45,168 nucleotides of DNA, from the NCBI GenBank assembly GCA_025923995.1, contig JAICEW010000008.1, positions 1 through 45,168 of the forward strand, read 5' to 3'. How positions within the stretch are numbered: position 1 is the stretch's first letter; each line of letters opens with the position of its first letter. Both the position numbers and the translations under genes were made by a program. Below the pieces are notes generated by a model. It did no database searches, was not told where the DNA came from, and saw nothing but the letters and a program-made list of their open reading frames with translations. Positions 30,833 to 41,850 of the stretch are shown one piece after another. The DNA comes from Vicinamibacteria bacterium. GTDB lineage: Bacteria; Acidobacteriota; Vicinamibacteria; Fen-336.

Positions 30833-31345
30833 TTGCTCCCATCCCGCCCGGCCATGCTCTTCTCGTCTGTCGCGGGCGCAACGCTGTGCCTCGCGCTCGC
30901 GGGCTGCGCCGCTCCCGATCCACGGGCCGAGATGGACATGCAGAACGTCCAGACGTACTGGGCCATCGACTCGCCGAGCGGAAGCACGCAGTACCTGGCG
31001 CCGGTCGTGCGCTTCGAGCTGCGCAACAAGGGGACGAAGAGTCGGATGGTGCAGGCGATGGCCACGCTGCGCCGGCAGGGCGAGGACGTGGCCTGGAGCT
31101 CGGCCTTCACGAAGATCCTGGAGCCGCACGGCGAGCTGGCCCCGGGCCAGACCGCGCCCGTGCAGCTCAAGCCGGAGGGCGAGGGGCGCTACACCTCCAC
31201 CGGCGCGCCCGAGGGCATGTTCCAGCACCCGCAATGGAAGGACGTCTCGGCCGAGGTGTTCCTGCGCGTCGACAACTCGACCTGGACCAAGGTCGGCACC
31301 TACCCGATCGAGCGTCACATCGGATCGAAGGGGCTCGCCCCCTAG
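30833..31345 (+). CDS. Exported lipoprotein of unknown function (170 aa)
   Basis: The TTG at 30833 is chosen because GAGGAGG stands 8 bases before it and because it gives a full lipoprotein signal (MLPSRPAMLF ... LALAGC, Cys about residue 25). An ATG at 30854 would shorten the signal and lacks a ribosome site. The mature part has a beta-sandwich look: VRFELRNKGTKSRMVQAMATLRRQGEDVAWSS, LAPGQTAPVQLKPEG, FLRVDNSTWTKVGTYPIERH. It resembles small YcfL-like or immunoglobulin-type lipoproteins but I cannot name the family. The stop shares one base with the GTG start of the next gene. Confidence 0.75.
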   Translation: MLPSRPAMLFSSVAGATLCLALAGCAAPDPRAEMDMQNVQTYWAIDSPSGSTQYLAPVVRFELRNKGTKSRMVQAMATLRRQGEDVAWSSAFTKILEPHGELAPGQTAPVQLKPEGEGRYTSTGAPEGMFQHPQWKDVSAEVFLRVDNSTWTKVGTYPIERHIGSKGLAP

Positions 31346-32937
31346 TGCCCCGCGCCGAGGCCGAACCGGACGCCGCGGCGGGCGTCTCCTTCGTCCACCT
31401 CTCGGGTCCCCGGCGCGGAGACGTCGACAGCGTGCGTGAGCTGCCCGCGACCATCGGATCGGCGGCGGAGGCCGCCGTCGCCGTGCCCGGCGCCGAGCCC
31501 TGCCACGCGCTGGTGCTGCGCCGGGGCGGCCACGTGCTGCTGGTGGACCACGAGTCCGCGCGCGGCACCTTCCTGGCCGGCGAGCAGGTGCGCGAGGCGG
31601 TGCTGCGCGACGGCGACGTGGTGGAGCTGGGCATGGGCGGGCCGCAGGTGCGCCTGCGCCTGGCGGGCGCCGGGCTGGGCGGGGAAGTCGTGGTGCCGGC
31701 CGCGCCCGGCCGCATGTCGCACACCATGGCGCTGCGCGTGGTGCAGCGCACCAGCAACGCGTTCCGCCGCCTGCTGGGGGCGATCGTGGCGCTGGCGCTC
31801 GTGCTCTTCGCCTGGAGCTTCCACCAGTCGCGCCGCCTGCAGGCCGAGCTGGCGAGCCTGCGCGAGGCCATGGCCAAGGGGGAGATCGAGCGCCGCACCT
31901 TCGCCGACCGCGTGGACGCCGAGCGCCAGCGCGCCGTCGCCGAGCGCGCGCAGCTGCAGCACCAGATCGAGGAGTACCAGAAGCAGGAGTCGTCGCTGCG
32001 CGGACAGCTGGCCGACGCGGCCGGAGGCGAGGTCGACTCGCTGCGCGACGAGCTGCACGAGACGCGCACGCGCATCCAGACGCTGGAGAGCGAGCGCGCG
32101 GCGGGCGAGACCATCATCCGCCAGTACGGCGGCGGCGTGGCGCTGCTGCAGGGCTCGTACGCGTTCTACGACGGCTCCAACCAGCCCCTGCGCGTCGCGC
32201 TGGACGAGAACGGCAAGACCGCGCGCAACGACGACGGCTCGCCCGTGCTGGAGGTGGACGCGGACGGCCCCGTCCACTCGGTCGAGTTCTACGGCACCGG
32301 CTTCCTGGTGGACCGGCGAGGCCGCATGCTCACCAACCGGCACCTGGCCGAGCCCTGGTGGAACGACGACGACGCCCAGGCGCTCGAGAAGCGCGGCTTC
32401 AAGGCGCGCATGCTCTACTCGCGCGCGTTCTTCCCTGGCCATCACGGCCCCTTCAACGTGCACATGGACCGCCACGCCGACGACGTGGACCTGGCCGTGC
32501 TGAAGGTGGAGCTGAGGGGCAAGCGCGTCCCCGTCCTGCCGCTCGAGCGCTCGAAGGAGGGCACCATCGCGGGGCAGCCCGTGGTCGTTGTCGGTTATCC
32601 TGCCGGCCTGGAGGCGCTCCTGGCCAAGACCGACACCCAGGTGGTGAAGTCCATCCTCGAGAAGCACGGCACCAGCGCCGAGAAGGTCACCGACGCGCTG
32701 GGCGAGCGCAACCTCATCCGGCCGTCCACCACGCAGGGCCACATCGGGGACGTGACCGGCACCGACATCGTCTTCGACGCGCCGACCACGCAGGGCGGCA
32801 GCGGCGGGCCCGTCTTCAACAAGCGGGGCCAGGTGGTGGCGGTCGAGTACGCCGTGCTGCAGAAGTTCGGGGGCAACTCCTTCGGAGTGCCCATCAGCTA
32901 CGCGCTCAAGCTGCTCGAGTCGCCCCCCGCTCGATGA
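31345..32937 (+). CDS. FHA domain - membrane - coiled coil - trypsin-like protease fusion
   Basis: 530 residues. Order: an FHA-type fold (about 15-115; the segment VLRRGGHVLLVDHESARGTFLAGEQV and DGDVVELGMGG correspond to FHA strands), a membrane helix (about 145-162, LGAIVALALVLFAWSF), a coiled coil (about 165-250, ELASLREAMAKGEIERRTF and EIRTRIQTLESERA-like heptads), and a chymotrypsin-fold protease domain. Catalytic His is in TNRHLAEP, Asp in DDVDLAVL and Ser in TQGGSGGPV. The protease part should be periplasmic and the phosphothreonine-binding FHA cytoplasmic. This suggests a signal-controlled protease. The GTG at 31345 overlaps the lipoprotein stop; the stop overlaps the GT39 start (ATGA). 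Confidence 0.82.
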   Translation: MPRAEAEPDAAAGVSFVHLSGPRRGDVDSVRELPATIGSAAEAAVAVPGAEPCHALVLRRGGHVLLVDHESARGTFLAGEQVREAVLRDGDVVELGMGGPQVRLRLAGAGLGGEVVVPAAPGRMSHTMALRVVQRTSNAFRRLLGAIVALALVLFAWSFHQSRRLQAELASLREAMAKGEIERRTFADRVDAERQRAVAERAQLQHQIEEYQKQESSLRGQLADAAGGEVDSLRDELHETRTRIQTLESERAAGETIIRQYGGGVALLQGSYAFYDGSNQPLRVALDENGKTARNDDGSPVLEVDADGPVHSVEFYGTGFLVDRRGRMLTNRHLAEPWWNDDDAQALEKRGFKARMLYSRAFFPGHHGPFNVHMDRHADDVDLAVLKVELRGKRVPVLPLERSKEGTIAGQPVVVVGYPAGLEALLAKTDTQVVKSILEKHGTSAEKVTDALGERNLIRPSTTQGHIGDVTGTDIVFDAPTTQGGSGGPVFNKRGQVVAVEYAVLQKFGGNSFGVPISYALKLLESPPAR

Positions 32938-34358
32938 CGTTGCCCGGCCCCGGGTGGCGTCGCGACCTGCTGCTCGCCCTGCTGATGGCGGCCCTGGCCG
33001 TGGCCGTGCGCCTGCCCCGCCTGGGCTTCCCCCCCGAGGAGATCTTCGACGAGGTCTACCACGCCAAGACGGCGCTCCAGTACCTGAACGGGCAGCCGCC
33101 CACCGAGTGGGTGCACCCGCCCACCGCGAAGCTGCTGATCGCGGTCGGCGTCTGGATGTTCGGCTACACGTCCTGGGCCTGGCGGCTGGCGCCGGCCCTG
33201 GCCGGCATCGCGCTGGCGCCCGTCTTCTTCCTGCTCGCGCGTCGCGTGCTCACCACCGAGCGGGCGGCGGTCCTGGCCACCCTCCTCCTGCTCTGCGACG
33301 GGGTCTACCTGGTGCAGAGCCGCGTGGCCATGACCAACATCTTCGCGGTGCTGTTCCAGGTCGCGAGCGCGCTCTTCGTCGTGCGCGCGGGACGCCGGGA
33401 AGGCGTGCCGGTGTGGGACATGCTGGCGGCGGGCGTCTGCCTCGGCCTCGCGCTCTCGACGCGCTGGACCAGCCTCTGGGCCACGGCCTTCCTGGGCCTC
33501 ACGTTCCTCGCGATGCGCGGCAAGCGCCTGCTGCGCTGGCAGGAGATGGCGCTCCTCCCGGTCATGTTCGCGCTGCTGCCGGCCGCCATCTATACGCTCA
33601 GCTACGTGCCCTGGATGACGCAGAACCCGTCCAACACGCTGCGCCACATGGTCAGCATGCAGGGCTCCATCTACCACTACCACGCGACGCTCAACGCGAC
33701 GCACCCCTACTTCAGCAAGTGGTACACCTGGCCGTGGCTGGTCCGGCCGACCTGGTACTACTTCACGACGGTCGACGGCTTCGTGAGGGGGATCGTCGCC
33801 ATCGGCAACCCGGCGCTGTGGTGGGCGTCGGTCCCCGTCTCCCTGTGGGCCCTGTTCTCCTCGGTACGCGCGCATCGTCCCGCCCTGGGCCTGGCCGGCG
33901 TCGCGTGCGCGGCCCTGGGCGGCGCCGCCTTCCTGGGGGGAGGCGCAGGGGAGGCGCTGGGCGTGCTGCTGCTCCTGGCCAGCGTGACCTTCGTCGTGTC
34001 CGCGCGCTTGTGGGCGCGCGACACGGTGCTGCTCTTCACGGGCGCCGGGTTCTTCGCCCTCTACCTGCCGTGGGGCCTCTCGCCGCGCACGCTCAACTAC
34101 AGCCACTACCTCTTCGAGGCGATTCCCTACGCGTGCCTGACGCTCGGCATCCTGCTGGACCGGCTCTGGCAGCGTGGGGACCAGGCGGCGCCGCGCGCGA
34201 TCGCGGGCGAGCTGACGGTCGTGGCCTACATCTCGTTGGTGGTCTCGCTGTTCCTGCTCTTCTTCCCGTTCCTCACCGCCATCGCGGTGCCCGCCGACTG
34301 GTTCCATCGCGGCTTCGGGGGCCTGCGTCCGTGGACCTGGTTCTCCTCCTGGATCTGA
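32934..34358 (+). CDS. GT39-family dolichyl/polyprenyl-phosphate mannosyltransferase (PMT-like)
   Basis: 474 residues with about ten membrane helices. The first loop has the acidic pair in EEIFDEVYHAKTAL (the DE motif of GT-C enzymes). Later loops carry NPSNTLRHMVSMQGSIYHYHATLN and HPYFSKWYTWPWLVRPTWYY, typical for protein O-mannosyltransferases. The C-terminal four helices resemble the PMT 4TM domain. Bacterial PMTs add mannose from polyprenyl-phosphomannose to exported proteins during secretion. The ATG overlaps the upstream protease stop, so glycosylation of that protein or its neighbours is conceivable. Short GC hairpin (GCGGG/CCCGC) just after the stop may end transcription. Confidence 0.85.
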   Translation: MTLPGPGWRRDLLLALLMAALAVAVRLPRLGFPPEEIFDEVYHAKTALQYLNGQPPTEWVHPPTAKLLIAVGVWMFGYTSWAWRLAPALAGIALAPVFFLLARRVLTTERAAVLATLLLLCDGVYLVQSRVAMTNIFAVLFQVASALFVVRAGRREGVPVWDMLAAGVCLGLALSTRWTSLWATAFLGLTFLAMRGKRLLRWQEMALLPVMFALLPAAIYTLSYVPWMTQNPSNTLRHMVSMQGSIYHYHATLNATHPYFSKWYTWPWLVRPTWYYFTTVDGFVRGIVAIGNPALWWASVPVSLWALFSSVRAHRPALGLAGVACAALGGAAFLGGGAGEALGVLLLLASVTFVVSARLWARDTVLLFTGAGFFALYLPWGLSPRTLNYSHYLFEAIPYACLTLGILLDRLWQRGDQAAPRAIAGELTVVAYISLVVSLFLLFFPFLTAIAVPADWFHRGFGGLRPWTWFSSWI

Positions 34359-34400: not shown

Positions 34401-35060
34401 ATGGCGCTCCTCGGCGACGAGGTCACGGCGCAGCTCAAGACGGTGTTCGAGCAGCTGAAGAACCCCGTCCGCCTGGCCGTCTTCTCGCAGGCGATGGCCG
34501 ACCCGGAGTCGGAGCAGGTGCGTCGGCTGATGGAGGAGCTCGCCTCCGCTCACGACCTGCTCACCACCGAGCCGGTGAACTTCGTGCTCGACCGCGAGCG
34601 CGTGGAGGCGCTCGGGATCGTGCGCACGCCCGCGGTCGCGGTCCTGGGAGCCGAGAAGGACTACGGGGTCCGCTTCTACGGCCTGCCGTCGGGATACGAG
34701 TTCGGCACCCTGGTGGACGCGATCGTGGACGTCTCCTCGGGCGACAGCGCCCTGTCCGAGCCCACGCGGCAGGCGCTGGGCGCCCTGGACAAGCCGGTCC
34801 ACGTCCAGGTCTTCTCCACGCCGACCTGACCGCACTGCCCCCGGGCCGTGCGCCTGGCCTACCGCTTCGCGATCGAGAGCGACCGGGTGACCGCGGACGG
34901 GATCGAGGTCACGGGCTATCCGGACCTGGCCCGCAGGTACCGCGTCTCGGCCGTGCCCAAGACCGTGGTGGGCGAGACGGTCGAGTTCGTGGGCGCGGGA
35001 CCCGAGGAGATGCTGCTCCGCCACGTCCTGCAGGCCGCCGCGCCCGCCGCCACCTCCTGA
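34401..35060 (+). CDS. Selenocysteine-containing thioredoxin-fold disulfide oxidoreductase (UxxC)
   Basis: The reading frame from the ATG at 34401 meets TGA at 34827-34829 and then stays open and homologous up to 35060. Read as selenocysteine, the product has 219 residues with U143-P-H-C146 following VHVQVFSTPT and continuing PRAVRLAYRFAIESD. This is the strand-CxxC-helix junction of PDO/glutaredoxin-like proteins; the TGA is exactly the first redox cysteine. Two tandem thioredoxin folds are present. The first (about 20-115) has no cysteine but keeps a cis-Pro (RTP77A); the second has U143/C146 and cis-Pro P186 (SAVPKT). A hairpin suited to a bacterial SECIS starts 12 bases after the TGA. The usual annotation would give two hypothetical fragments. 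Expected role: reduction of disulfides or peroxiredoxins. A single point mutation in a Cys codon is the alternative. Confidence 0.85.
34841..34857 (+). promoter_or_regulatory. Candidate bacterial SECIS hairpin of the UPHC gene
   Basis: CCGGGC-CGTGC-GCCTGG: six pairs (one G-T) with a five-base loop containing G and T. The stem starts 12 bases after the TGA and the loop G is 19 bases after it, in the range described for bacterial SECIS elements. A competing fold (CGCAC/GTGCG at 34831-34852) also exists. Read from the sequence by eye; not folded by program. Confidence 0.55.
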
Positions 35061-35094: not shown

Positions 35095-36213
35095 GTGACC
35101 GACGAGCCGCCGCGGCGTCCCAGAGCCAACCGCGAGCTCTACATCGACGTGTTCCGCGGGCTGATGGCGCTGGTCATGGTCCAGGGCCACGTCTTCGATA
35201 CGCTGCTGGAGCCGGCCGCGCGCGCGCAGCCGTGGTACCTGTTCCAGCAGCTGTTCCACGGCTCCACCGCGCCGGGGTTCCTGTTCGCCTCGGGCTTCGT
35301 GGCCGGCCTGCCGCGTGCGCCCCTGTCGTGGCGCGCGATGCGCCGGCGCGCGCGCCGCCTGCTCTTCGTCCTGGGCGTCGGGTACGCGCTGCGCCTGCCC
35401 TACCTCTCGCTGTGGAAGATCCTGAACGAGGGCACGCCCGCCGAGAAGGCGGCCGCGGTCGCCTGCGACGCGCTGCACGCGATCGCCGTCAGCCAGCTCG
35501 GAGTGCTGCTCCTGCAGCGGGTGTTCGGCCGCCGCTGGGTCTGGGCCGCGGCCCTCACGGCGGCGGTCGTGGTCGCCGTCAGCCCGCTGGCCTGGCGTCC
35601 CGCGGTCGCGGCCGCGCTGCCGCTGCCCTGGGCCGCGTACGTGAGCCCCCTGCGCGCGCCCTCCCAGTTCCCGCTCTTCCCCTTTGCCGCGTTCGTGCTG
35701 GCGGGCACGGTGGCGGGCGCGCAGCTGGGTCGCCAGGAGGCCGAGGTGCGCCACCGCCGCGCGCTCGGGTGGGGCGCGGCGCTGGCGGCGCTGGGCCTGC
35801 TGCTCGCGTGGCCGCTCGCGGGCCTCGTCGACTTCTGGGGGCCCTCGCCCGCCTACGTGCTGCTGCGCCTGGGCGGCCTGCTGCTGCTGCTGCGCGTGGT
35901 GGAGCAGGCCACGGTGCACGCGCCGCGCCTGGTGCGGCCGCTGGCCCTGCTCGGACACGAGACGCTGCTCGTCTACGTCCTCCACCTGCTGCTGCTCTTC
36001 GGCGGCGTGCTGGGCTCCGGGCCGCTGCTGCCCTGGGCCGGGCGGCTGGGCTTCGGCGGGGCCGCGACCGTGCTGGCGCTGCTGCTGCCGGTGCTGCTGC
36101 TGGCCGCGTCCTGCTGGCGGTGGTTCAAGACGCGCGCGCCCCACGAGGCGACGCTGGTGCTCGCGTTCCTGGGCACGGTGCTGGTGTTCGAGCTGCTCAC
36201 GCGTCCCTGGTGA
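35095..36213 (+). CDS. DUF1624-like membrane acyltransferase (heparan-alpha-glucosaminide N-acetyltransferase type)
   Basis: 372 residues from a GTG at 35095, about ten membrane helices. The N-terminal RELYIDVFRGLMALVMVQGHVFDTLL contains the D-x-F/L-RG-x-x-x-x-M-V-x-x-H pattern seen in DUF1624 and related acyltransferases; the histidine (about residue 27) is the likely catalytic centre. Further helices carry STAPGFLFASGFVAGLP and LGHETLLVYVLHLLLLFGGV, as in the family. It probably acetylates a cell-surface sugar using a cytoplasmic acyl donor. It lies 34 bases after the selenoprotein gene with no clear promoter, so may be its operon partner. Confidence 0.78.
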   Translation: MTDEPPRRPRANRELYIDVFRGLMALVMVQGHVFDTLLEPAARAQPWYLFQQLFHGSTAPGFLFASGFVAGLPRAPLSWRAMRRRARRLLFVLGVGYALRLPYLSLWKILNEGTPAEKAAAVACDALHAIAVSQLGVLLLQRVFGRRWVWAAALTAAVVVAVSPLAWRPAVAAALPLPWAAYVSPLRAPSQFPLFPFAAFVLAGTVAGAQLGRQEAEVRHRRALGWGAALAALGLLLAWPLAGLVDFWGPSPAYVLLRLGGLLLLLRVVEQATVHAPRLVRPLALLGHETLLVYVLHLLLLFGGVLGSGPLLPWAGRLGFGGAATVLALLLPVLLLAASCWRWFKTRAPHEATLVLAFLGTVLVFELLTRPW

Positions 36214-40329: not shown

Positions 40330-41850
40330 TCACGGCAGGGGCCGAAGGACCAGGCCCCGAAGTTGCGGGGGCGGACCGCCCGTATCTCGCTCGAGGATCA
40401 AGAGGTTGTCCCCGCGGAGGAGCGCGTCGGCCGGCAGGCGGACGGTGACCGCATCGCCGACGCGCTCCGCCGTGAGCTCCCGGTCGAGCCAGACGCGGAG
40501 CGGACGCGCGTCGGCGGCGAAGAAGAGCGTGGCCTCGAGCGCCCGCGGCGGTCGCGCCGGTACCACCACGGCGGCGCGCGTCCCTGTCATCGCCGCGGCC
40601 CCAGCGCCTGGCTCCCACCCCTCGCGGAGGTACCAGCGCAGGCGCGGCTCGCCGCTGTCGTCCGCCGTCGCGCGCAGCGCCTCCTGCTCGACCGCCTCGC
40701 CTCGCGCGAGCCGATCGGCCGCCATCAACGTGCCGCGGCACGTGGCGAGCACGCGCGCCGCGTCGCCGTCCGCGCGCAGGTCGACGCGCCGGTAGCGGTC
40801 GAGCAGCACGAAAGGCGACAGCGCGATCGCGACCGCGGCGGCCAGCGCACCGATCCGTGCGGGCTTCGGCGTCTCGCCGGGCGGTGCCGCCTCGCGCACG
40901 TGCGGGACCACGCGATCGAGCGCCAGCATCACGAACGGCAGCAGCGCCGGCAGGACGTACACGTGCAGGCGCGGCAGGTCCGGCGCGGAGAAGTCGGACG
41001 GGTTCAGGAACGGCGCCGCGAACGCAACGAGAGCGACGTAGAGGAAGGCGAAGCGCCAGCCGCTCGGTCGCACGGCACCGATCGCGGCCACGACGGCGAC
41101 GCCCGCGAGCAGCGCCAGCGAGCCGGTCTGCGTCAAAGCCCACAAGCGCAGCCGATCCGCGAGGTCCGGGAACCCGCCCGCTGGGCTCGAGAGGTACGGC
41201 GTCCACCACAGGCGCAGGATCAGCGTGAACGCCAGCGAAGGCGCGAGCACCGCGACCATTTCGCTGGCGGCGCGCTTCCATCCGCGCTCGAGCCGCGCCA
41301 GGAAGACGGCGGGGAGCAGGACGATGAAGAACTCCTTCGAGGCCGTGCCCAGCACGCCCACGAGCGCCAGGACCGGCCAGGACGCGCGCGCCGCGAGCGC
41401 CAGCAGGAACAGCGTCTCGATGAGCAGCGTCACCGGCTCGACCAGCAGCCGGTACCGAACGATGCGCGCGACCGGATCGGACGCGAGCAGCGCGGCGGCC
41501 GCGACGGCGCTCGGCACCGTGCCATTCCCGAGACGGCGGAGCATCGCGTACGCCGCGAGCCCCGTCAGGAGCAGTGCCGCGGTGTTGACGTGCCCGAATC
41601 CCCGCGCGGCGTTCCAGGGGGAGACGTGAACGAGCCACGGCGCGAGCAGCCGGTAGCCCCACGGCGCGATCGTGAAGACGCGCGGCTCCTCGGCCATGGC
41701 CGCGTAGACGTGCCCGTCGAACGCGGGCAGGTTGAAGCGGTCGTAGAACACGTCGCGGTTCTGCCACGCGCGGAAGGCCAGGACGGCGACGCAGAGCAGC
41801 GCCGCCACGGCGACGCCCAGCGCCCGGCTGCGGTCCGGCGACGGCGCCAC
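40330..41850 (-). CDS. Polytopic membrane protein, glycosyltransferase-like
   Basis: 506 residues from a GTG at 41850 that overlaps the peroxiredoxin stop by one base. About ten helices in the first 370 residues, with a periplasmic loop near the N-terminus (RAWQNRDVFYDRFNLPAFDGHVY) and a soluble C-terminal domain (about 380-506; beta-rich, RLPADALLRGDNLLILERDTG). Overall layout matches GT-C/DUF2029-type transferases but the catalytic acidic motif is less clear than in its neighbour. No name is justified. It probably works with the GT39-type enzyme downstream in cell-surface glycan assembly. Confidence 0.68.
   Translation of the reverse strand: MAPSPDRSRALGVAVAALLCVAVLAFRAWQNRDVFYDRFNLPAFDGHVYAAMAEEPRVFTIAPWGYRLLAPWLVHVSPWNAARGFGHVNTAALLLTGLAAYAMLRRLGNGTVPSAVAAAALLASDPVARIVRYRLLVEPVTLLIETLFLLALAARASWPVLALVGVLGTASKEFFIVLLPAVFLARLERGWKRAASEMVAVLAPSLAFTLILRLWWTPYLSSPAGGFPDLADRLRLWALTQTGSLALLAGVAVVAAIGAVRPSGWRFAFLYVALVAFAAPFLNPSDFSAPDLPRLHVYVLPALLPFVMLALDRVVPHVREAAPPGETPKPARIGALAAAVAIALSPFVLLDRYRRVDLRADGDAARVLATCRGTLMAADRLARGEAVEQEALRATADDSGEPRLRWYLREGWEPGAGAAAMTGTRAAVVVPARPPRALEATLFFAADARPLRVWLDRELTAERVGDAVTVRLPADALLRGDNLLILERDTGGPPPQLRGLVLRPLP

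Follow-up and report, generated by a model that had tools for sequence, protein, structure and literature searches.

The gene at 34401-35060 on the + strand of the window (the whole stretch of 45,168 nucleotides that was analysed) is, with a probability of about 0.94, a functional selenoprotein gene of the protein disulfide oxidoreductase (PDO) family (TIGR02187), whose UGA at 34827 is translated as selenocysteine (Sec) with the help of SelB and a downstream hairpin. Judged from its sequence, it would be a case of selenocysteine used in a general thiol redox protein of a soil acidobacterial group. Standard annotation would cut the gene short, and the active site would be lost. Close relatives offer clean Sec/Cys switches, with one of the Cys forms lying in a genome that retains SelB, and these are useful for asking why Sec is kept or lost. 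The features of the gene are the following.

34401-35060, + strand: PDO-type selenoprotein gene, 219 amino acids with Sec143, matching TIGR02187 and 1j08
34401-34775, + strand (approximate limits): N-terminal thioredoxin-like domain without CxxC, replaced by QAMADPESEQ
34797-35036, + strand: C-terminal catalytic thioredoxin-like domain, with Pfam Thioredoxin_3 on residues 134-210 and the cis-Pro motif SAVPKT
34827-34829, + strand: TGA decoded as Sec (residue 143), the U of U-P-H-C in the active site, aligned to the catalytic Cys
34836-34838, + strand: TGC, Cys146, second active-site residue of UPHC
34841-34857, + strand: SECIS-like hairpin CCGGGC(CGUGC)GCCUGG, with a six-pair stem kept in TGA members

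Translation from the ATG at 34401 with TGA read as U yields 219 residues, the sole internal TGA being codon 143, and ends at the terminal TGA stop at 35058-35060. The read-through product shows TPT-U-PHC-P, with SAVPKT farther along, and the C/U-x-x-C active site of the C-terminal domain is present as U-P-H-C at residues 143-146. Standard ORF finding returns an ORF at 34401-34829 with a product of 142 residues. An earlier note on this DNA had described a frame broken only once, by this TGA, and truncated to 142 residues by ordinary gene calling, and both statements are borne out.

The protein was compared by phmmer with solved structures, where it matches 1j08, a Pyrococcus-type PDO, over residues 4-212 (E 7.6e-42) and 1a8l, named "protein disulfide oxidoreductase", over nearly its full length (E 2.1e-41). 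The fold follows from this match to PDOs of solved structure. It also matches the NCBIfam model TIGR02187 (PDO_seleno_TRX) at 234.3 bits over model positions 2-209 of 209, the curated cut-off being 185 bits; U was passed as C in the family and structure searches, and this one letter lifts the scores slightly. In the phmmer alignment, the TGA sits opposite the first Cys of TPTCPYCP in Pyrococcus-type proteins (CPYC in both 1j08 and 1a8l), where a Cys had been expected in homologues, and the homology extends to residue 212, in agreement with the claim that the downstream half is intact. An Rfam scan of the gene region gave no relevant family, and no viral homologue of the PDO protein was found.

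The selenoprotein family is already described in other bacteria, and the present gene adds one member to it. A 2006 list (PMC1794560) has its Sec form, from Carboxydothermus and Symbiobacterium, under the name "homolog of AhpF, amino-terminal domain", the family is also named "homolog of AhpF N-terminal domain (Grx-like domain protein)" (PMC1794560; PMC13188914), and a 2026 review (PMC13188914) counts TIGR02187, with UxxC, among the high-confidence predictions. Thus, the selenoprotein is "hidden", as the earlier note had called it, for naive gene calling but not as a novelty; TIGR02187 and the earlier listings agree with its remark that thioredoxin- and glutaredoxin-like selenoproteins are a known class.

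Genes for Sec synthesis are present in the organism's own genome assembly (6.8 Mb, 592 contigs, 96.8% completeness). A tRNA-Sec was found at 69.7 bits, over the Rfam cut-off, with the anticodon TCA according to ARAGORN, and profile matches reached 540 bits for SelA and 345 bits for SelD. The selD gene itself carries an in-frame TGA, in the motif CAG-U-AGK, at what we take to be the catalytic Cys/Sec position of SelD, and a GCUCAG(GUC)CUGAGC hairpin lies about 33 nt beyond this TGA. With its TGA and GUC-loop hairpin, selD (L032, at G000:C83:18214-19137) is a second selenoprotein gene of the genome. No formate dehydrogenase alpha over the cut-off was found in this genome, and therefore no supporting selenoprotein comes from that side. 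The tRNA-Sec gene directly adjoins (L001:1-973) an ORF that, by reading, resembles a tyrosine-recombinase integrase, and may be an integration site.

Searches of this assembly with the SelB family model, the SelB of a close relative and the SelB winged-helix domain did not find selB. The weak matches of these searches were rejected after the sequences were read, as they are LepA, TypA, IF2, proteins of the EF-G and EF-G-like types, a FeoB-like GTPase and a piece of EF-Tu. Relatives from the organism's own family have selB beside rnr, whereas in the own genome rnr is followed by a different small ORF and pgi in place of selB. The rnr gene (L098, G000:C10:39283-43227) apparently shifts frame near 41385 relative to the protein of a relative. 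The three empty searches and the rearranged rnr-selB neighbourhood would fit a recent loss of SelB, after which the UGA of a former selenoprotein would act as a stop and only the 142-residue N-terminal domain would be made. Such a loss is nevertheless very improbable, as tRNA-Sec, selA and the Sec-type selD are intact, the stretch downstream of the TGA is conserved, and a full EF-Tu is likewise missing from the assembly. Indeed, EF-Tu, which is essential to every bacterium, is represented there only by an end fragment of 89 amino acids. Because EF-Tu is likewise fragmentary and the assembly is split into 592 contigs, the missing selB is weak evidence, best read as an assembly gap. Of the components that the earlier note had proposed to look for (selA, selB, selD and tRNA-Sec), only selB was thus not found in the fragmented assembly, and a genome without selenocysteine machinery, which the note had set against its own reading, is not the case.

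The conservation of the TGA was followed in 60 genomes (the own genome and relatives), 34 of which have the PDO protein. The alignment with homologues that had been suggested as a check places TGA at this codon, matching the catalytic Cys, in 29/33 relatives' homologues, and TGC or TGT in 4/33. SelB over the cut-off is found in 29/29 TGA genomes versus 1/4 Cys genomes (G008), with a Fisher p of 7e-4 that is, like the other p-values here, a guide only, the compared sequences being related and not independent. The Cys homologue of G008 (L042) is a TGC form inside the Sec clade, with a decayed hairpin in a genome that keeps SelB, and is likely a recent Sec-to-Cys change. The 396 genomes covered from this phylum contain 73 full-score homologues, scoring over the TIGR02187 cut-off, and 31 of the 73, as counted from the table, contain one internal stop, which is TGA in all of them and never TAA or TAG. 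In a collection of named records, TGA recurs at this position in entries from Myxococcota, Chloroflexota and acidobacteria, and Cys in those from Poribacteria, archaea and other groups. Without exception, the non-TGA homologues examined carry a codon for Cys here. The closest named record, an Acidobacteria bacterium (isolate AA29), is 73% identical and has TGA too.

This conservation in practice refutes the reading of the TGA as a mutation or sequencing artefact in a Cys-type PDO gene. A single in-frame stop, a fragmented assembly and a selB not found in it could speak for a pseudogene or an error, but 29 relatives and members of other phyla share the TGA at this codon, and full-score family members are without TAA or TAG. 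Compared with the relative L038, replacement codons amount to 13/72 after the TGA and 41/142 before it, and against the nearest relatives their share is mostly lower after the TGA than before. As the part after the TGA is at least as constrained as the part before it, a pseudogene is disfavoured, and this reading is hardly credible. That the 142-residue product is functional and the downstream part a separate gene agrees with the ORF 34401-34829 output by standard callers but has a negligible probability, since homologues are single two-domain proteins and the TGA falls exactly in the active-site motif, where the non-TGA homologues examined have a Cys codon.

Decoding of the UGA as Sec would also call on the hairpin, which begins 11 nt downstream of the TGA and has a loop that begins 17 nt after it, with G at loop position 2. 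Taken alone, the window hairpin is no better than chance in single-sequence folding (MFE z = 0.74 and -0.17), and comparison with synonymous-codon shuffles gives p = 0.16. Every TGA member from this acidobacterial family and order has the six-pair stem, and the hairpin is lost in L042, the family's Cys form. Relatives mostly carry, at the corresponding site, a GGUC-containing loop on stems of 5-8 bp. A loop G at the right distance on a stem of 5 bp or more occurs in 26/28 distinct TGA members versus 4/13 Cys members, the mean z against synonymous-codon shuffles is 1.87 versus 0.12, and the MFE z differs between both groups with a Mann-Whitney p of 3e-4. In some stems, pairing is kept despite two-sided changes, as in CCAGGGC/GUCCUGG versus CGAGGGC/GUCCUCG. 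Clearly, the SECIS-like hairpin is convincing across the family and not for the window sequence by itself, where it gains weight only because it is conserved across the family. The stem-loop with apical G at the right distance, as described in the earlier note, is therefore present and family-conserved, but not significant alone.

In the mechanism that we propose, Sec-tRNA-Sec would be brought by SelB to the UGA at 34827, SelB recognising the hairpin that begins 11 nt, and reaches its apical loop 17 nt, beyond this codon. The product would be a protein of 219 residues with two thioredoxin folds. In the second fold, Sec143 and Cys146 would form the redox pair, Sec attacking and Cys resolving the selenylsulfide. 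The first fold, having lost its CxxC, is probably structural, or may serve for docking of a reductase or substrate.

The N-terminal domain reads QAMADPESEQ and has no Cys where most homologues have CxxC, which confirms the inactive first domain announced by the earlier note. The second CxxC that archaeal-type PDOs have in the N-terminal domain is thus missing, and the protein is a one-site variant. This feature is less usual and is common to the present acidobacterial family and order. The N-site is lost in 14/37 TGA (Sec) rows versus 2/40 Cys rows (p 5e-4 by row count). On the tree, however, there are only about 3 losses, two of them inside a mainly-Sec clade, and independent pairs gave no support for tying the loss of the N-terminal CxxC to Sec. 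Such a link, strong by rows, was therefore dropped. In a second TGA lineage (L053-L055 and L057, family f5), the N-terminal CxxC was lost independently, leaving a GGSESG-like sequence. It is doubtful that C-terminal Sec and N-site loss go together in a one-site subfamily in which a two-site disulfide shuttle became a single selenylsulfide enzyme.

The gene is flanked by two others.

32358-34358, + strand: PMT-type glycosyltransferase, adjoining the PDO gene in several family members
35095-36213, + strand: HGSNAT/acyltransferase-3-type membrane protein, which follows the PDO gene in most members of the family

The same two kinds of gene, for a PMT-type glycosyltransferase and for an HGSNAT-type acyltransferase, flank the PDO gene in several family members, an arrangement that does not point to a redox partner. 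Farther upstream in the window, 30886-32937 encodes a protein that combines an FHA domain with a trypsin-like protease domain.

Among known systems, TIGR02187 (PDO_seleno_TRX) shares with the present protein the two-domain architecture and UxxC in the C-terminal domain, with a score over the curated cut-off. The Sec site shows no substantive difference from this family, whereas the N-terminal CxxC has been lost in the present lineage. The Pyrococcus PDO (1a8l, 1j08) is similar in its full-length homology, the motif TPT-[C/U]-P-x-C-P and the cis-Pro, but has CxxC in both domains; the present protein has no such motif in the first domain and Sec-x-x-C in the second. The N-terminal domain of AhpF (1hyu, 4o5q) also consists of two fused thioredoxin folds, although its phmmer E is only about 1e-6. 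Its single active redox centre lies in the second of these folds, a one-site layout similar to that of the present protein. Unlike AhpF, the present protein is stand-alone, with Sec and without the flavin reductase part.
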